From Actinomycetota bacterium (GTDB taxonomy: Bacteria > Actinomycetota > Acidimicrobiia > Acidimicrobiales > Ilumatobacteraceae), in assembly GCA_009702045.1 (NCBI GenBank), contig WLIV01000034.1:1-38678 (forward strand): 38,678 nucleotides of DNA. The letters are read 5' to 3'. The translations under genes were made by a program, and so were the position numbers. This document shows, piece after piece, positions 21,705-29,348 of the stretch (the stretch's first letter is position 1; each line of letters starts with the position of its first letter). Below the pieces are notes generated by a model. That model was not told where the DNA came from. It saw only the letters and a list, made by a program, of their open reading frames with translations, and searched no databases.

Positions 21705-24200
21705 TCAGCGGTGACGACGACGGCCGCCGCGGTCGCCGCCACGGTCGCCACGATCGCCACCACCGGCGTTGCCGCCGGCTTCGCCACCGGGGCCCAGGTC
21801 GCCCAGTTCGCCGGCAAGCTCGGCGTCGAACGCATCGTCGAACGACACGGCAACGGCGCCATCCACCGGCGCGGCCGGGGCCGCAGCCGGGGCTGCCGAA
21901 CGCTCGGGACGGTCGCTGCGCTCGCGGCGCGGGCCACGATCGCGGTCGCCGCTGTTGCTGCGCTCACTGCGCTCACTGCGCTCGCTGCCGCCGCCTGCAC
22001 CTTCGGGAATCACAGGATCCCACGAGTCGGCGGGGGTCAGGCTGACCTTGCCCTTCTCGTCGATCTCCTCGACGATGACCTCGATCTCCTGACCGAGCGT
22101 CAGCACATCTTCCACGTTGTTGATGCGCTTGCCCTTGCCGAGCTTGCTGATGTGCACCAGACCGTCGCGGCCGGGGAGGATGTTGACGAAGGCACCGAAC
22201 TTGGTCATGTTGACGACGCGGCCCGGGTAGACCTTGCCGACTTCAGCCATCGGCGGGGAGACGATCGCCTGGATGCGGGCCTTGGCCTCTTCCATGCGCC
22301 ACGCCTCGACGGCGCCGATGGTGACGATGCCCTGGGCGCCGTCGTCATCGACGGCGATGTCGGCGCCGGTCTCCTGCTGGATGGTGTTGATGACCTTGCC
22401 CTTGGGCCCGATGACCTCACCGATCTTGTCCATCGGGATGAAGATCGTGGTGATCTTCGGTGCCGTTGCGGCAACCTCGGCACGGGGAGCGGCGAGACAT
22501 GCATTCATGTTCTCGAGGATCGCCGTACGGGCTTCCTTGGCCTGATCCAGAGCGGCGGCCAGGACGTCGGCGGGGATGCCGTCGATCTTGGTGTCGAGCT
22601 GCAGGGCGGTGATCGCATCGGACGTACCGGCGACCTTGAAGTCCATGTCGCCGAAGGCATCCTCGGCGCCGAGGATGTCGGTGAGCGTGGTGTACTTACC
22701 CTCGGCAAAGACCAGACCCATGGCGATACCGGCCACGGCAGCCTTCACCGGCACGCCGGCGTCCATCAGGGCCAGCGAACCCGAGCAGACCGACGCCATC
22801 GAGGTGCTGCCGTTGGAGGCGAGCACTTCGGCGACGAGGCGCAGGGTGTAGTTGAACTCGTCGAGACCCGGCAGCACCGGCAACAGCGCACGGGCGGCGA
22901 GCGCACCGTGGCCGATCTCGCGGCGCTTGGGCGAACCCACGCGACCCGTCTCACCGTTGGCCCACGGGGCCATGTTGTAGTGGAACAGGAAGTACTTGTG
23001 CGTCTCCGGGCCGAGCGTGTCGAGCAACTGGTTCATGCGCGGCATGGCCATGGTGACGACGTTCATCACCTGGGTCTCGCCACGCTGGAACAGGCCGGTG
23101 CCGTGAGCGGTGGGCAGTGTGCCGACTTCGCTGGACAGCGGACGCAGATCGCGGGGACCGCGACCGTCGATGCGCAGGCCCTCGTCGACGATGCGCTTGC
23201 GCACCAGCTTCTTGGTGAGGCTGCGCACAGCCTCCTTCACAGCCTTCTCGCTGCCGGCGAAGGCAGCGCCCTCGCCACACAGCTGGGCGATCGCGTTCGC
23301 CGACGCAGCGTCGGTGGCGGCGTTGCGCTCGGCCTTCCCGGCGATGGCGACAGCGGCCTTGATGGCCGGGGTGCAGATGCCCTCGACCGCGGCGAACACC
23401 TCGGGGCTGTAATCGGCGGTGACGCTGTACGGCATCGGCACGATCGGGCCCTTGGTGGCGATGACGCTGGCGACGAGCTGGCGCTGCAGGGCGATGCTGT
23501 CCTTGATGTACTGCTTGCTGGCATCGAGGCCACGGGCCAGGGCGGCCTCGTCGACCTTCGGGGCGCCATCGGCGTAGTACTTGAAGCTGTTGGCGGTACC
23601 GCCAGCCTCAACCATCATGATCGCGACGTCACCGTTGTCCAGCTGACGGCCGGCGACGACGAGCTCGAAGGTGCTCTGGGCGCCCTCTTCGTAGGTGGGG
23701 TGCGGGATCCACTCGCCGGCCTGGGTGTGGGCGACGCGGACGGCGCCGATCGGGCCGTCGAAGGGGATACCACTGATCATCAGCGAGGCGCTGGCGGCAT
23801 TGATCGACAGCACGTCGTGCGGGTTGGCCATATCGGCGCCGAGGATCGTGAGCACGACCTGGGTCTCGTTGCGGAAACCATCAGGAAATGCGGGGCGAAG
23901 CGGCCGGTCGGTGAGGCGGCAGGTGAGGATCGCGTCCTCGGTGGGGCGGCCTTCACGACGGAAGAACGAACCCGGGATCTTGCCGGCCGCATAGGCCCGC
24001 TCTTCCACGTCGATCGTGAGGGGGAAGAACTCCATCCCCGGCTTCACGTCCTTGGCGGCGTTGGCCGTGGCCAGCACCGTGGTGCCGCCCAGGGTGGCAA
24101 CGACGGCACCCATGCTCTGCTGAGCAAGCTTGCCGGTCTCGAACGACAGGGCTTTGTCCGTGCCAGTAATGGCGCCGGACACTCGAATGGCTTCTGCCAT
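21705..24200 (-). CDS. pnp: Polyribonucleotide nucleotidyltransferase (PNPase)
   Basis: 831 aa. Two RNase PH domains with a helical linker; 'GRPTEDAILTCRLTDRPLRPAFP' in the first and 'DGRGPRDLRPLSSEVG', 'RTHGTGLF'-like 'TAHGTGLFQRGETQ' in the second. KH domain at about 583-620 with GPKG ('IGEVIGPKGKVINTI'), S1 domain at about 653-720 ('GRVVNMTKFGAFVNILPGRDGLVHISKL'). A tail of about 110 residues is Ser-Glu-Arg, Ala-Pro and Arg-Gly rich. It degrades or tails RNA 3' ends and works in the degradosome. ATG 24200 has a Shine-Dalgarno AAGGAG; an upstream in-frame ATG at 24236 is less likely. It follows rpsO, the classical order. Confidence 0.96.
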   Translation of the reverse strand: MAEAIRVSGAITGTDKALSFETGKLAQQSMGAVVATLGGTTVLATANAAKDVKPGMEFFPLTIDVEERAYAAGKIPGSFFRREGRPTEDAILTCRLTDRPLRPAFPDGFRNETQVVLTILGADMANPHDVLSINAASASLMISGIPFDGPIGAVRVAHTQAGEWIPHPTYEEGAQSTFELVVAGRQLDNGDVAIMMVEAGGTANSFKYYADGAPKVDEAALARGLDASKQYIKDSIALQRQLVASVIATKGPIVPMPYSVTADYSPEVFAAVEGICTPAIKAAVAIAGKAERNAATDAASANAIAQLCGEGAAFAGSEKAVKEAVRSLTKKLVRKRIVDEGLRIDGRGPRDLRPLSSEVGTLPTAHGTGLFQRGETQVMNVVTMAMPRMNQLLDTLGPETHKYFLFHYNMAPWANGETGRVGSPKRREIGHGALAARALLPVLPGLDEFNYTLRLVAEVLASNGSTSMASVCSGSLALMDAGVPVKAAVAGIAMGLVFAEGKYTTLTDILGAEDAFGDMDFKVAGTSDAITALQLDTKIDGIPADVLAAALDQAKEARTAILENMNACLAAPRAEVAATAPKITTIFIPMDKIGEVIGPKGKVINTIQQETGADIAVDDDGAQGIVTIGAVEAWRMEEAKARIQAIVSPPMAEVGKVYPGRVVNMTKFGAFVNILPGRDGLVHISKLGKGKRINNVEDVLTLGQEIEVIVEEIDEKGKVSLTPADSWDPVIPEGAGGGSERSERSERSNSGDRDRGPRRERSDRPERSAAPAAAPAAPVDGAVAVSFDDAFDAELAGELGDLGPGGEAGGNAGGGDRGDRGGDRGGRRRHR
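21717..22035 (-). repeat. Low-complexity repeats coding the PNPase tail
   Basis: Short repeats encode SER-SER-SER-type (around 21958-21990), Ala-Pro and Gly-Asp-Arg-Gly units (21720-21780). They lie in frame and are a property of the pnp C-terminus, not a separate element. Confidence 0.6.
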
Positions 24201-24413
24201 GACGAGCTCCTTTCGACCGCGCGCGAATCGGCGCACGGTGTTGTGGAGCGGAGGACGGTTCCCAGTCGACAGTGCCGACGCTGCTGACCCAACGGGTGGG
24301 GAGCCTCGGCACTCGCGACTGACAACCGATCCAGGTATCCGCTCGGTTGGTTTATCAAGTGCCAGGCTAGCAGCGATGATGCCCGTTGGGTGGGCAGACG
24401 GCGGCGGCGGCTT

Positions 24414-24533: not shown

Positions 24534-24788
24534 TTAGCGGCGCAGGCCGTTGGCAGCGACGATGCGGCGGTAACGCTCGATGTCGATGTTCTTCACGTAG
24601 TCGAGCATGCGGCGACGCTGACCGACCAACTTGAGCAGACCGCGACGGCTGTGGTGGTCCTTCTTGTGGGTCTTGAAGTGCTCGGTGAGGTGGTTGATGC
24701 GACCGGTGAGCAGAGCAATCTGCACTTCCGGTGAACCAGTGTCGCCCTCGTGCAGCGCGTGCTTCGCGATGATGTCCTGATCAGCCAT
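24534..24788 (-). CDS. rpsO: Ribosomal protein uS15
   Basis: 84 aa, slightly shorter than the common 88-89. Canonical S15: '[53 protein letters not shown]', ending '[14 protein letters not shown]'. It binds the 16S rRNA central domain early in 30S assembly. ATG 24788 is preceded by a GGAAGG-type Shine-Dalgarno. Its 128-nt upstream region has two small hairpins that may be an S15 autoregulatory leader. pnp follows after 333 nt. Confidence 0.96.
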
Positions 24789-24916: not shown

Positions 24917-25675
24917 ATGAGTCGGATCGTCCTACGCGACCTCACTAAACAGTTCGGTGAGCTCGCCGTGGTCGACCCACTGTCGCTCGATATCGAGGCC
25001 GGCCAGTTCGTCAGCATCATCGGCCCGTCGGGATGCGGCAAGACCACCCTCGTGCGCGTGATCGCCGGCCTCGAACCCGCCACAGGCGGTGAAGTGGAGG
25101 TCGACGGCGCAGCGCCGATCGAGGCACGCACGCACAAGCGAGTGGCGATGGTGCCGCAACAGCCCGGTCTGCTGCCGTGGCGCACCGTGCGGGCGAACGC
25201 CCGACTGCTGCTCGACGTCAACCGCTCCACCAACCCGGTGGACGCCGTGGCCCCTGAGACGCTGCTGGACGAAGTCGGCCTGGGCGCGTTCCTCGATGTC
25301 TTCCCCCACGAACTGTCGGGTGGCATGCAACAGCGCGTCGCCCTTGTGAGGGCCCTGGCGCTCCACGCTCCCCTGCTCGTGATGGACGAGCCGTTCGCAG
25401 CACTTGACGAGATCACACGCGCCGAGATGCGCGTGATGTTGAACCGCCTGGTAGAGGGCAAGGGCGTCACTGTGCTGTTCGTCACCCACAGCATCACCGA
25501 GGCCGTGGCGCTCAGCGACCGGGTGCTGGTCAGCAGTCCTCGGCCGACACGCCTCATCGCCGACATCGCCATCGACCTGGATCGGCCGCGATCTGCCGAG
25601 GTGGAAGACGACCCCCGTTTCGTCGAGCTGTGCGCCGAGGTGCGCCATGCGCTGCACCGGGGGATGAACGCATGA
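24917..25675 (+). CDS. ABC transporter ATP-binding protein (SsuB/TauB/ThiZ-like)
   Basis: 252 aa. Walker A GPSGCGKTT (36-44), Q-loop 'MVPQQPGLLPWRTVRANA' with the 'LLPWRTV' wording typical of nitrate/sulfonate/taurine/pyrimidine ATPases, signature LSGGMQQR, Walker B 'LLVMDEPFAALDEITR', H-loop 'FVTHSITEAVALSDR'. It drives the permease that overlaps its stop (ATGA). The substrate is set by the binding protein two genes on, which is of the NMT1/THI5 kind. Confidence 0.93.
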   Translation: MSRIVLRDLTKQFGELAVVDPLSLDIEAGQFVSIIGPSGCGKTTLVRVIAGLEPATGGEVEVDGAAPIEARTHKRVAMVPQQPGLLPWRTVRANARLLLDVNRSTNPVDAVAPETLLDEVGLGAFLDVFPHELSGGMQQRVALVRALALHAPLLVMDEPFAALDEITRAEMRVMLNRLVEGKGVTVLFVTHSITEAVALSDRVLVSSPRPTRLIADIAIDLDRPRSAEVEDDPRFVELCAEVRHALHRGMNA

Positions 25676-26436
25676 ACAAGCGACTCCTCGCCCCCGTTGT
25701 TGGCATCCTGGTCTTCCTCGGCGCGTGGGAGGTGCTCGTGCGTGCGGGACACGTCCGCCCGTTCGTGTTGCGCGCACCGTCGCGCATCGTGCGCTATCTC
25801 ACCCAGCATCCGAGCGGGTACGCGAGCGCCGCATGGGTCACCATCCAGCACGCCTCCATCGGCACGCTCATCGCGCTCCTGGTGGCGCTGTTGTTCGGCT
25901 CGGCGATGGCCGCCTCCGAGTTCTTCGAACACGCCGCGCAACCGGTGCTGACGCTGTTGCAGGTCACGCCGTTCGTCGCCTATATCGCCTCGGTCGTGCT
26001 CTGGATCGGCTCTGGCACCAAGCCGGCGTTGTTCATCGTCGCCCTCGTGTGCATGCCGGCGTTCACGTTCGCCACCGTGGACGGTATGCGCAGCGCCGAC
26101 CCTGCCACGCGCGAGTTGCTGGCATCGGTTGATGCCGCTCGCTGGGAAGTGCTCTGGCGACTGCGGCTGCCGTCGGCCTTGCCGTCGCTGTTCACCACCG
26201 CTCGCTACAACGTCGGCCTCGCGCTGATCGCCGCGTACCTGGTGGAGGGCGGCAACTTTGCCGATGAAGGACTTGGCTCCATCGGGCGGCGCGCGGCCTC
26301 GCTGAACCAGGGCGACGCCTTGTGGTCGGCCATCTTCGCGATGGCACTGCTGGGCACGATCTCGCTGGTGCTGCTGTCCCTGTTGCAGCGGGTGGCGATG
26401 CGTTGGCACGTCTCACAGCGTCGCCAACTACGGTGA
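25672..26436 (+). CDS. ABC transporter permease (SsuC/TauC/ThiX-like)
   Basis: 254 aa BPD-type permease. The N-terminal segment 'LLAPVVGILVFLGAWEVLVRAG' and 'FVLRAPSRIVRYLTQHP' are typical of the SsuC/TauC group (which has 'LPSPxxv'). The coupling motif is 'ELLASVDAARWEVLWRLRLPSALPSLFTTARYNVGLALIAAYLVE'. About six membrane segments. The start ATG 25672 overlaps the ATPase stop. A 5-nt gap, which contains the end of a promoter box, leads to the chorismate mutase-VOC gene. Confidence 0.92.
   Translation: MNKRLLAPVVGILVFLGAWEVLVRAGHVRPFVLRAPSRIVRYLTQHPSGYASAAWVTIQHASIGTLIALLVALLFGSAMAASEFFEHAAQPVLTLLQVTPFVAYIASVVLWIGSGTKPALFIVALVCMPAFTFATVDGMRSADPATRELLASVDAARWEVLWRLRLPSALPSLFTTARYNVGLALIAAYLVEGGNFADEGLGSIGRRAASLNQGDALWSAIFAMALLGTISLVLLSLLQRVAMRWHVSQRRQLR
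26429..26434 (+). promoter_or_regulatory. Leaderless -10 box of the chorismate mutase-VOC gene
   Basis: TACGGT, 7 nt before ATG 26442, overlapping the last codons of the permease gene. Confidence 0.4.
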
Positions 26437-26441
26437 ACCCG

Positions 26442-27239
26442 ATGTCAACGCCCGAGCCACCCCGCCCCGAACTCGCCGCACTGCGCACCCGCATCGATCA
26501 ACTCGACGCGGCGCTCATCGCGATCGTCGCTGAGCGTCTCGCCGTGTGCCGGGAAGTGGCTGCGGTGAAACAGGGCAGCGACACGCCGGTCATCCAACCA
26601 GCGCGGGTGCGCGACGTCGTCACCTCCCGTCGGCAGCAGGCGATCGAGGCGGGGGTCGACGCCGACTTCGCCGAGCAGTTGTTCCGCGTGCTGCTCACCG
26701 AGACCCATCGCATCGAGGTTGCCGGCCACCGCCCCGACTCGGCCCCGGACAAACAGGCGGCCGCCGGCGAACGCTCGGGGCTCGACACCGTCGCCAGCCG
26801 TGTCGATCACATCGTCATTGCGGTGCACGATCTTCGCGCCGCCATCGACTCGCTGGTGCAGCGCTTCGGCTTCCACGAGGTCTCCCTCGCCGACCCGCGC
26901 CCCGGTATCGCAGCTCTCGCTGCCGGTGGCGTCACGTTCGTGTTCGTCGGCCCCGAAGCATCCCCCTCGGTGGCCGCCTATCTCGCCGATCGAGGCGACG
27001 GCGTGCAGCACGTCTCGATCGAGGTGTTGAATGCTGGTTACGCCCGGTCGTGCCTCGAAGGGGGCGGTGCACCGCTGCTCACCGAGGTGGCCGTCGATGC
27101 CGACGGCCATGAACAGTTCTTCGCTGCCAACGATCCGGCAACTGGCGTTCAGTTGGGTTTCATCTCCCGAGTCGGCCACCGCGTGGGAGTGGGTACTGAA
27201 AACGTACTGACTATGTTCGATGCGATGCTGCACCGCTAG
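26442..27239 (+). CDS. Chorismate mutase (AroQ-type) fused to a VOC domain
   Basis: 265 aa in two parts. Residues about 8-95 are an AroQ-type helical chorismate mutase: 'ELAALRTRIDQLDAALIAIVAERLAVCREVAAVK' with R15, R32 and K43 at active-site positions, then 'IQPARVRDVVTSRRQQAIEAG' and a final 'LTETHRIE' where E92 replaces the usual Gln. After a linker, residues 121-250 form a vicinal-oxygen-chelate domain resembling the first half of 4-hydroxyphenylpyruvate dioxygenase ('VDHIVIAVHDLRAAIDSLVQ', 'YLADRGDGVQHVSIEV'). H123 and H190 could bind metal; the usual Glu in the last strand appears as Gly239. It lies between transporter genes with its own -10 box. Prephenate or a related aromatic acid is a reasonable ligand guess; function is unproven. 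Confidence 0.8.
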   Translation: MSTPEPPRPELAALRTRIDQLDAALIAIVAERLAVCREVAAVKQGSDTPVIQPARVRDVVTSRRQQAIEAGVDADFAEQLFRVLLTETHRIEVAGHRPDSAPDKQAAAGERSGLDTVASRVDHIVIAVHDLRAAIDSLVQRFGFHEVSLADPRPGIAALAAGGVTFVFVGPEASPSVAAYLADRGDGVQHVSIEVLNAGYARSCLEGGGAPLLTEVAVDADGHEQFFAANDPATGVQLGFISRVGHRVGVGTENVLTMFDAMLHR

Positions 27240-27248: not shown

Positions 27249-28400
27249 ATGTTGCGTCGAATCGCCGTTCCGTCGGCCGTCTCCGTTCTGATTCTGCTCA
27301 CCGCCTGCAGCGCAGACAACACCGCCATCGGCAGCCCCGAGCCCACCTTCCTAGGATCCTCACCGACCGCCGTGGTACCCGAGGTCACCGCCGACGCACC
27401 GTTCCCCGCAGCGCGCTGCGAAGCGAATAAGGCCGCCGGCGTCATCACCTACCTGTCCAGTTTCGACTTCGCGGCCTCGGCCTCGATCGTCGACGTGGTG
27501 ATGGCCAGCACAGCCCACTATTACGAAGCGATGTGCCTCGATGTCGTCTACAAGCCCAGCTTCTCGGTGGACAACTACCCGCTCGTGGCCGCCAACGAGG
27601 TGCAGTTCTCGTCGGGCGGATCGTTCAGCGAAATGGTCGACTTCGCCGGAGCGAATGATGCCGGGTTCGTCGCGCTCGCAGTCGAGGGCCGCACCGGCAT
27701 CGACACGCTCATCACCAAGGACGGCGCAGTTCCCACTCTCGCCGACATCAAGGGCAAGAAGATCGGCGTCAAGGGTGCCATCACCCCATCAGTGAAAGCG
27801 ATGCTCGCCAAGCAGGGCCTTGTGGAGGGCACCGACTACAACACCGTGCTCCTCGACGGGTTCGACCCCACCGTGCATATCGAGGTACCCGACATCGTCG
27901 GGTTTCCCGGTTACAAGAGCAACGAACCCAACCAGCTCACCGCAGCGGGCATCAAGTTCAAGGCCTACGATCCGGCCGACTTCGCAATCCCTGGCAGCTT
28001 CGGCATTCTGTACACGAACCAGCAGTTCCTGACTGAACACCCCAGCGCGGCGCAGGACTTCATGCGCGCCACCATGCGCGGCCTCGCCGATGCACTCGCC
28101 GACCCCACACTCGCTGCCACCACTTGTGTCGATCTCATCAACTCGCTCGGCAACACACTGCACCTGTCAGCCGATGGCGAACTCGCTCGCTGGAACGTCG
28201 AGTCAAAGCTCGTCGCCGACAGTGCAACCGTCGACGCACCCCTGGGTCTGCCGCTGATCGATCAGCTCACAGCCGAGGTCACCGCCTACGCGGCGATCGG
28301 ACTGTTCAACGGAGTGGTTCCCATGATCGACACACTCGTCGACGCCAGCGTGTTGGCCGGGATCTACGACAAGGGCACGCTGATCTGGCCCAAGGTCTGA
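27249..28400 (+). CDS. NMT1/THI5-like ABC substrate-binding lipoprotein
   Basis: 383 aa. Signal peptide with lipobox LTAC (C20). The body is the NMT1/THI5-type periplasmic-binding fold: 'YYEAMCLDVVYKPSF', 'EVQFSSGGSFSEMVDFAGANDAGFVALAVEGRTGIDTLITKDG', 'TLADIKGKKIGVKGAITPSVKAMLAKQGL', 'GSFGILYTNQQFLTEHPSAAQDFMRATMRGLADAL'. Family members bind thiamine pyrimidine precursors, riboflavin, sulfonates or other small organics. It should serve the ATPase and permease at 24917-26436 although a third gene intervenes. No TPP or FMN riboswitch is visible upstream. Its stop is 3 nt from the convergent ribF stop. Confidence 0.88.
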   Translation: MLRRIAVPSAVSVLILLTACSADNTAIGSPEPTFLGSSPTAVVPEVTADAPFPAARCEANKAAGVITYLSSFDFAASASIVDVVMASTAHYYEAMCLDVVYKPSFSVDNYPLVAANEVQFSSGGSFSEMVDFAGANDAGFVALAVEGRTGIDTLITKDGAVPTLADIKGKKIGVKGAITPSVKAMLAKQGLVEGTDYNTVLLDGFDPTVHIEVPDIVGFPGYKSNEPNQLTAAGIKFKAYDPADFAIPGSFGILYTNQQFLTEHPSAAQDFMRATMRGLADALADPTLAATTCVDLINSLGNTLHLSADGELARWNVESKLVADSATVDAPLGLPLIDQLTAEVTAYAAIGLFNGVVPMIDTLVDASVLAGIYDKGTLIWPKV

Positions 28401-28403
28401 ACG

Positions 28404-29348
28404 TCAGCCACCCACAACCGTACGGGCGTGATCGATGTCGTTCTTCAACTGACCCTTCAACGCCTCGAACCCGTCGAACTTGCGCTCACTGCGCAGGAAG
28501 TTCGTGAACTGCACGCGTGCCGCCTCGTCGTAGAGGTCGCCGGTGAAATCGATGAGGTGCGCCTCCAGCAGCGACGTCTCTGCATGTTCGTAGAACGTGG
28601 GGCGCCGCCCGAGGTTCATCGCGCACGCGTGCCGGCTGCCGTCAGGCCGAAAGTACCAGCCGGCGTACACGCCGTCCGCAGGCAGGCAGGCGCTGACAGC
28701 GACCTCGACGTTGGCAGTGGGAAACCCCAAGAGACGCCCGCGCTGATCGCCAAGACGAACGATGCCTCGAGCCTCGAACGGGTGGCCCAGCATTCGCGAT
28801 GCCAGTTCCACTTGCCCACCCGCCATCGCTCGGCGAATGGCGGTCGAGCTGATCGGTTCGTCGGGCCCGTCAGTGCGCGGCACCAGCGTCATCCCTTCGA
28901 CGGCGAAGTCGTTGGCGGCGCCGAGTTCACGAAGCGTGGCGACGCTGCCGCTTCGGTTGCGCCCAAAGTGAAAATCGTCGCCGACCACCACGTGCAAGGC
29001 ACTGAGGCAGTCCACGAGCACCCGCTGGGCGAACGCCATTGGCTCTTCCTGCGACTGGCTCTGATCGAAGCTCACGACCACCGTGGCATCGACGCCGGTA
29101 GCTGCCAACAACTCCAGCTTCTGGTCGAGGTCGGTCAACAGGCGCGGCGCTGACTCTGGCCGCACCACCGATGCGGGGTGACGATCGAAGGTCACCACCA
29201 CAGAGCGGGCGCCGGTCGCGGCTGCACGGCTACGGACCTCGGCGATGACCGCCTGGTGGCCCAGATGCACTCCATCGTACGCGCCGATGGTGACGACCGA
29301 ACGCTGCCCCGGGAAGGGCTGCGTGGAGAGATCAGTGACGATGAGCAC
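28404..29348 (-). CDS. ribF: Bifunctional riboflavin kinase/FAD synthetase
   Basis: 314 aa. The N-terminal FMN adenylyltransferase domain has 'IGAYDGVHLGHQ' (21-32), 'VTFDRHP', 'VVGDDFHFGRNRSGS' and 'ISSTAIRRAM'. The C-terminal riboflavin kinase domain has 'GRLLGFPTANVEV', 'LPADGVYAGWYF' and 'MNLGRRPTF'. It converts riboflavin to FMN and then FAD. The start is GTG 29348, supported by a TATCGT -10 box ending 8 nt upstream, in the 28-nt gap after truB. It follows rbfA-truB, the common actinobacterial order. Confidence 0.95.
   Translation of the reverse strand: MLIVTDLSTQPFPGQRSVVTIGAYDGVHLGHQAVIAEVRSRAAATGARSVVVTFDRHPASVVRPESAPRLLTDLDQKLELLAATGVDATVVVSFDQSQSQEEPMAFAQRVLVDCLSALHVVVGDDFHFGRNRSGSVATLRELGAANDFAVEGMTLVPRTDGPDEPISSTAIRRAMAGGQVELASRMLGHPFEARGIVRLGDQRGRLLGFPTANVEVAVSACLPADGVYAGWYFRPDGSRHACAMNLGRRPTFYEHAETSLLEAHLIDFTGDLYDEAARVQFTNFLRSERKFDGFEALKGQLKNDIDHARTVVGG

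Follow-up and report, generated by a model that had tools for sequence, protein, structure and literature searches.

A chorismate mutase-VOC fusion that is probably the sole chorismate mutase of many genomes in one bacterial family and is often encoded beside F420-precursor genes

In this study, a gene encoding a fusion of a chorismate mutase (CM) and a VOC domain was identified at 26442..27239 (+ strand) of the window, the whole stretch of 38,678 nucleotides that was analysed. The fusion is the only match to the CM_2 family in nearly all genomes that carry it, its VOC domain lacks the carboxylate metal ligand, and its gene often lies beside genes for F420 precursors. Taken together, we hold with moderate confidence that the protein is the sole CM of its hosts with a built-in ligand-binding domain that is not an oxygenase, and that it often stands next to F420-precursor genes.

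Structure and reality of the fusion gene

The gene is a single open frame of 265 aa. The Pfam search placed CM_2 at residues 14-92 (62.9 bits, cut-off 27) and Glyoxalase (PF00903) at residues 120-237 (24.9 bits, cut-off 20.6); Glyoxalase_4 (PF13669) also exceeded its cut-off (28.6 bits against 27). No NCBIfam model scored above its cut-off for the window protein. Based on Pfam and conservation, the AroQ CM domain was assigned to 26481..26717 (+, residues 14-92). It is followed by a linker at 26718..26798 (+, residues 93-119; pLDDT below 50 at residues 99-117), a VOC domain at 26799..27185 (+, residues 120-248; Pfam, profile match and conservation) and a C-terminal helix at 27195..27233 (+, residues 252-264), which matches the last helix of HPPD and hydroxymandelate synthase (HMS). 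The initial annotation had read an AroQ mutase and a VOC domain in one frame and had proposed an HMM search of both parts, and the results bore out this reading. Although the linker was modelled with very low confidence, P102, K104 and A106 are each present in 49 of 50 fusions, and S112, D115, T116 and V117 are conserved as well. The model of the full-length protein was only moderately confident (pLDDT 75, pTM 0.54), so the arrangement of the domains cannot be taken from it.

The dN/dS ratio was 0.01-0.08 for the CM part in all 11 pairs and 0.03-0.25 for the VOC part in 9 of the 11 pairs, the other two being saturated; dS exceeded 1 in several pairs. This indicates that purifying selection acts on both domains. 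A frameshift or an assembly error joining two genes, which would have undone the annotation, is ruled out by these low ratios and by the nearly full-length single-frame copies in 125 of the 200 genomes of the window's family (a count of listed rows) and in 45 of the 51 loci that a scan of GTDB contigs returned. No Pfam family was matched by the frame antisense to the fusion (26445-27233) or by two frames on the opposite strand of the adjoining ABC transporter genes.

The stop counted in the copy of genome G011 is the gene's own end. Fusion-bearing genomes belong to 15 of the 27 sampled genera (g1-g4, g6, g9-g11, g14, g15, g18, g21-g23 and g25), and the fusion is retained even in genomes of about 1.5 Mb. 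Of the GTDB loci that were not near full length, five were cut by contig ends and one was a cyanobacterial match to the CM part only; the GTDB loci and the 200-genome set overlap, and some records are the same contigs. When a profile was run against 395 genomes of the class, with at most six candidates scored per genome, 20 full-length rows were obtained, all from the fusion's own family and none from outside it. The next row (54.8 bits) matched the CM part only. Phyla beyond the class were covered by the GTDB pattern scan alone, which is sensitive to close relatives only. The phylogenetic spread, which the annotation had suggested checking, is thus wide within one family and confined to it in the class sample.

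The fusion as the sole chorismate mutase

CM_2 was found in 178 of the 200 family genomes and occurred exactly once in 174 of the 178. Two matches were present in G157, G102, G176 and G185, and in G102 and G185 both matches are copies of the fusion. The 178 include each of the 125 genomes that carry the fusion, which is the sole CM_2 match in 121 of them. The window genome (99.45% complete) has the fusion as its single CM_2 match, and a search of this genome for AroH gave no match, so no second CM of either the CM_2 or the AroH type was found there. CM_2 was not detected in 22 of the 200 genomes, which speaks against the sole-CM reading; many of the 22 are incomplete, but G020, G085 and G125 are listed as 90-92% complete. 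Stand-alone CMs were found in genera without the fusion.

The enzymes that would use the product are separate. Prephenate dehydratase (PheA) is encoded on contig 23 of the window genome and prephenate dehydrogenase (TyrA) on contig 13, and TyrA was present in all 13 genomes tested. An ACT domain was detected above the cut-off in the PheA of the window genome and slightly below it in the TyrA (25.7 against 27). Because of the exclusive distribution of the fusion and the retention of PheA and TyrA, the fusion is very probably the sole, housekeeping CM of these genomes.

A Val-type pocket in the mutase domain

R15, R32, K43 and R55 are invariant in the 50 fusion sequences of a set below 90% identity; we take them to be the catalytic R11, R28, K39 and R51 in the E. 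coli numbering. Glu92 is also present. At the position of E. coli Glu52, all 50 fusions carry Val56 (codon 26607-26609), whereas Glu occupies this position in all 19 stand-alone CM rows. Of these rows, 12 come from genera of the family that lack the fusion and 7 from outside the family, and one gene is represented twice, as L111 and L152. With regard to the AroQ family (PF01817), the fusion therefore has the Pfam score and the catalytic Arg/Lys set and lacks the equivalent of Glu52. The best NCBIfam match in all five fusions examined was TIGR01803, a CM-like model that we assume to be of the PchB/PapB type, at 63.9-69.4 bits (63.9 for the window), below its cut-off of 73.35. PRK07075 (isochorismate lyase) scored 57.5 bits in the fusion of L050, also below the cut-off. 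Two stand-alone CMs tested from fusion-less genera were assigned to clade E (TIGR01795) above the cut-off. The fusion shares with such stand-alone AroQ CMs the fold, the catalytic Arg/Lys set and the usual single copy per genome. It differs from them in its VOC partner, its Val in place of Glu and its scores under the listed NCBIfam CM cut-offs.

The passages of Kunzler et al. (2025, PMC12329711) that concern this site describe Glu as the rule among AroQ mutases, where it contacts the 4-OH of chorismate. They describe Val in the PchB isochorismate pyruvate lyase and in the secreted *MtCM of M. tuberculosis, and state that Val accompanies lyase activity. According to the same passages, *MtCM is a genuine CM despite its Val, with another Glu positioned for the substrate hydroxyl, and replacing Val with Glu cut its CM activity 13-fold (PMC12329711). 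On our data, the fusion combines a Val-type pocket with the predicted role of sole mutase. Unlike PchB and *MtCM, it has a VOC domain and is mostly the sole CM_2 match of its genome.

The VOC domain and its lost carboxylate ligand

Two of the expected metal ligands are kept in the VOC domain. H123 (26808-26810) is present in 50 of 50 fusions and H190 (27009-27011) in 46 of 50; in L061 and L066, Gln replaces H190 and the adjoining motifs are intact. Position 239 (27156-27158), the site of the carboxylate ligand, is Gly in 42, Ser in 7 and Ala in 1 of the 50 sequences and is never acidic. All three residues lie where the initial annotation had put them. Further invariant positions are H223-E224-Q225, R243, G245 and R247, and H246 is present in 49 of 50. 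V167 (48 of 50) stands at the place of the fourth ligand of epimerase-type VOCs; its equivalence and that of G239 to the epimerase ligands were set by eye, since alignments with the epimerase-like protein of the genome are unreliable in the last third.

The domain belongs to the VOC/glyoxalase superfamily by its Pfam scores and by the fold of its model (pLDDT 81, pTM 0.78). A profile of 18 VOC parts reached HMS 2r5v (1.7e-13) and 7yvv (3.3e-11) ahead of methylmalonyl-CoA epimerases. The C-terminal half of HPPD and HMS holds an iron site of His, His and Glu. In the profile alignment, the second His of the fusion (GVQH) stands opposite a His of the C-terminal half and opposite an Asp of the N-terminal half of the HPPD/HMS chains, and G239 stands opposite the Glu of the iron site. 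The tail of the fusion (I-S-R-T-G-H-R ... N-V-x-A-L-F) aligns with the strand and helix that end the C-terminal half; these stretches are individually weak (for example i-Evalue 33 in 2r5v) and were treated as segments of a single colinear match. The model of the VOC domain aligned over its whole length, last helix included, with the C-terminal halves of 3zgj (Z 12.5, rmsd 3.6, 149 residues) and of HPPD 1cjx (Z 11.6, rmsd 3.8, 149 residues). The highest Z, 13.0 (rmsd 3.2, 128 residues), was obtained with the N-terminal half of 2r5v in an alignment that ends at residue 141, and the top two or three structures are to be read as tied in Z. Foldseek ranked BH1468 and epimerase-type VOCs first by E-value with both models. 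Because the Z values are tied and Foldseek favours BH1468 and the epimerases, the assignment to a half rests on the ligand pattern and the terminal helix. The annotation had likened the VOC part to the N-terminal half of HPPD. A local HMM search also matched that half, but both His residues and the terminal helix agree with the pattern of the C-terminal, catalytic half. The domain therefore resembles the catalytic half of HPPD/HMS, and its relation to HPPD is not exclusive.

Membership in a known enzyme class does not follow from this resemblance. The fusion scored 31.3 bits against the HPPD model TIGR01263 (cut-off 277) and 24.6 bits against the methylmalonyl-CoA epimerase model TIGR03081 (cut-off 114.95). 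It shares with HPPD and HMS (TIGR01263; 1cjx, 2r5v, 3zgj) the VOC fold, the two His of the catalytic half and the I-x-R-x-G...N-x-x-A-L-F terminal helix, but it has one VOC domain of about 130 residues instead of two halves (about 350 residues), and the Glu ligand, found in 0 of 50 sequences, is replaced by Gly, Ser or Ala. A remnant of HPPD from tyrosine catabolism was considered and rejected, as no full-length HPPD match was present in the window genome. A different gene of this genome encodes a VOC protein that was classed by eye as epimerase-like. The viral structure library gave no useful match.

Gene neighbourhood

In the window, the fusion lies between an ABC permease gene (SsuC/TauC type by HMM matches; 25675..26436, +) and the gene of an NMT1/THI5-type substrate-binding protein (27249..28400, +; Pfam and a profile against structures), with gaps of 5 and 9 bases. 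The annotation had placed the fusion in an ABC transporter locus, and this holds for the window, but such a neighbourhood is found in some genera only. The nearest neighbours were determined among a defined list of genes that had been searched for. Of the 79 distinct loci, 40 had ribE (riboflavin synthase) upstream and fbiC downstream, and 17 were flanked by the permease on the upstream side and the binding protein on the downstream side; the other 22 had mixed neighbours or were truncated by a contig end. Among the 41 rows of the ribE/fbiC type, ribE was at most 84 bases away in 37, and the gap to fbiC exceeded 500 bases in 7 and reached 2.4 kb. Pfam confirmed ribE (Lum_binding) and fbiC (Radical_SAM and CofH_C) in L067. 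The locus L095 holds ribE, the ATPase, the permease, CM-VOC, a 2.3-kb stretch, the binding protein, fbiC and ribF all in one row.

The borders of the locus are more constant. We take the genes at 21705..24236 (-), 24546..24779 (-) and 28404..29348 (-), from their sequences, to be pnp (polynucleotide phosphorylase), rpsO (ribosomal protein S15; 67% identity to the L067 frame) and ribF (riboflavin kinase/FAD synthetase), respectively. Both pnp and rpsO form the usual left border (32 of 36 distinct loci with at least 6 kb on that side), and ribF forms the usual right border (37 of 42 with at least 6 kb there). To state that the fusion always lies between pnp and ribF would be too strong.

About 2 kb separate CM-VOC and fbiC in the small-genome loci L054, L056 and L058-L060. 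The gap in L056 (8849-10695) contains HNH-endonuclease-like and MazF-like frames, judged by eye, and is likely an insertion in a compact row. A transposase-like frame, also judged by eye, lies between the permease and CM-VOC at L091:4969-5820, in a genus whose cluster is loosened. The fbiC of the window genome is on contig 53, away from the fusion and adjoining folate genes. There (L169:4965-9927), it is followed by a PabB-PabC-like fusion of a chorismate-binding enzyme and a class IV aminotransferase, and by a pterin-binding enzyme of the dihydropteroate synthase type.

In the parts of two papers that treat these reactions, riboflavin synthase is described as releasing 5-amino-6-ribitylaminouracil, and FbiC as condensing the same compound with tyrosine to FO (PMC12855090, PMC8498797). 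A row of ribE, CM and fbiC would gather steps to both FO precursors, and on gene order we regard this link to FO as a tentative possibility. The order may also be mere proximity, because the gaps to fbiC reach 2.4 kb and the fbiC of the window genome is elsewhere.

The flanking transporter and riboflavin

The ATPase of the transporter (24917..25675, +) is of the NitT/TauT/Ssu type according to Pfam and NCBIfam-type HMM matches. The binding protein is a candidate RibY-like protein; among solved structures its profile reached only 4nmy and the ThiY-type 3ix1 at E 0.001. No match to ribE or ribH was found in the window genome, although fbiC and ribF are present; counting this genome, 9 of the 18 family genomes tested lacked matches to both ribE and ribH. 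In G012, ribE was matched more weakly (42% identity) and ribH was missing. From its gene content, the window genome is probably a riboflavin auxotroph that retains FO synthase.

PMC4418817 describes RibXY as a pair of a permease and a binding protein belonging to the sulfonate/nitrate/taurine type. For Chloroflexus, the pair was shown to support riboflavin uptake; it is also reported in Actinobacteria, and an FMN riboswitch is given as the criterion for its assignment. The permease and binding protein of the window are of the same type, and flavin genes adjoin them in some relatives (L095). Unlike RibXY, the locus gave no Rfam match at the gathering threshold to the FMN riboswitch or another RNA family, whether in the window or across nine related loci, and riboflavin is only a candidate substrate. 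All 10 tested genomes of the window's genus keep the three transporter genes, and five of them have ribE and five do not, so the presence of the transporter does not discriminate with respect to the loss of ribE and ribH. Riboflavin import is favoured because ribE and ribH are missing and the transporter type is like RibXY; it is disfavoured because the FMN riboswitch was not found and five transporter-bearing genomes keep ribE. The transporter may therefore be a riboflavin-type importer.

Proposed role and alternatives

We propose that the N-terminal AroQ domain converts chorismate to prephenate, which would feed the separate PheA and TyrA. The C-terminal VOC domain, with its carboxylate metal ligand lost, would be a built-in ligand-binding domain, and its ligand is most likely of the arylpyruvate type or aromatic, such as prephenate, 4-hydroxyphenylpyruvate or tyrosine. 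Ligand binding would tune the mutase activity, like ACT domains in other aromatic pathway enzymes. Co-expression of the steps to both FO precursors would be the likely reason for the order ribE-CM-VOC-fbiC, and in the window's genus a probable riboflavin importer would occupy the flanking places. Whether the VOC domain is a ligand-binding control domain is, in our estimate, an evenly balanced question. In a more specific version, the VOC domain would chelate the alpha-keto acid of prephenate at a two-His metal centre with an open carboxylate position, and the fusion would gate or divert prephenate to tyrosine for F420 in step with the supply of 5-amino-6-ribitylaminouracil; we regard this version as a long shot.

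The VOC domain could still be an enzyme, acting on prephenate or a nearby arylpyruvate through a two-His metal site, perhaps with a non-standard third ligand. The conservation of H123 and H190, the invariant or nearly invariant polar residues H223, E224, Q225, R243, H246 and R247 and the retained HPPD-type terminal helix would suit such an enzyme, and prephenate bears an alpha-keto acid of the kind chelated by HPPD-type sites. However, no sequence is acidic at position 239, V167 occupies the fourth-ligand place of the epimerases as placed by eye, and Gln stands for H190 in L061 and L066 beside intact motifs. Since the carboxylate is lost everywhere and H190 is lost in 4 of 50, oxygenase chemistry is unlikely, and we consider an active VOC enzyme improbable. 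The annotation had favoured binding or sensing over HPPD-type oxygenation, and this fits the residues at these two sites better. A VOC domain that binds no ligand and serves dimerisation, stability or docking of partners such as TyrA or FbiC is somewhat less improbable. The loss of the metal ligands agrees with it, and the three nearly invariant linker residues would suit an interdomain contact, but the charged and polar residues that never vary are grouped in the second VOC module, as expected of a binding site. This conserved polar cluster therefore favours a bound ligand.

The AroQ domain, in turn, might be an isochorismate pyruvate lyase or a 4-amino-4-deoxychorismate mutase rather than a CM. 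The Val56 change, which in other AroQ enzymes goes with isochorismate pyruvate lyase activity in the account of PMC12329711, speaks against the CM role by analogy; Val56 matches Val55 of PchB, and TIGR01803 and PRK07075 were among the matches. Their scores are both under the cut-offs, though, fusion genomes mostly have no other CM_2 while the window genome retains PheA and TyrA, and *MtCM is a genuine CM with Val, if with another Glu for the hydroxyl. We judge a lyase or aminodeoxychorismate role quite unlikely. The annotation had further suggested that the transporter next to this binding or sensing domain could import a related aromatic compound. The tight packing in the window and the same neighbours in 17 of the 79 loci agree with this, but 40 loci have ribE and fbiC instead, and both the type of the transporter and the lack of ribE and ribH suggest riboflavin. 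The aromatic importer is not supported, and a sensor tied to it is very improbable.

The control modules of CM, a classic branch-point enzyme, are well known, and its known fusions include those with PheA, TyrA, DAHP synthase or ACT domains. The fusion described here likewise joins a CM to a second pathway or regulatory domain, but its partner is a VOC domain. No description of a CM-VOC fusion was found among open-licence PubMed Central papers. If our preferred reading of a mutase with a ligand-binding control domain is correct, the VOC partner in these 15 genera would be a control module derived from a former oxygenase half, undescribed in the searched literature, and the location of its gene between those for riboflavin synthase and FO synthase, seen in many relatives, would tie aromatic amino acid supply to F420 synthesis. 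A sole housekeeping mutase with a Val-type pocket is also relevant to the interconversion of mutases and isochorismate pyruvate lyases. The locus also occurs in several public MAGs whose records bear the titles Bifidobacterium breve or Acidimicrobium ferrooxidans (L047, L049, L068, L070 and L053), and these titles appear to be wrong.
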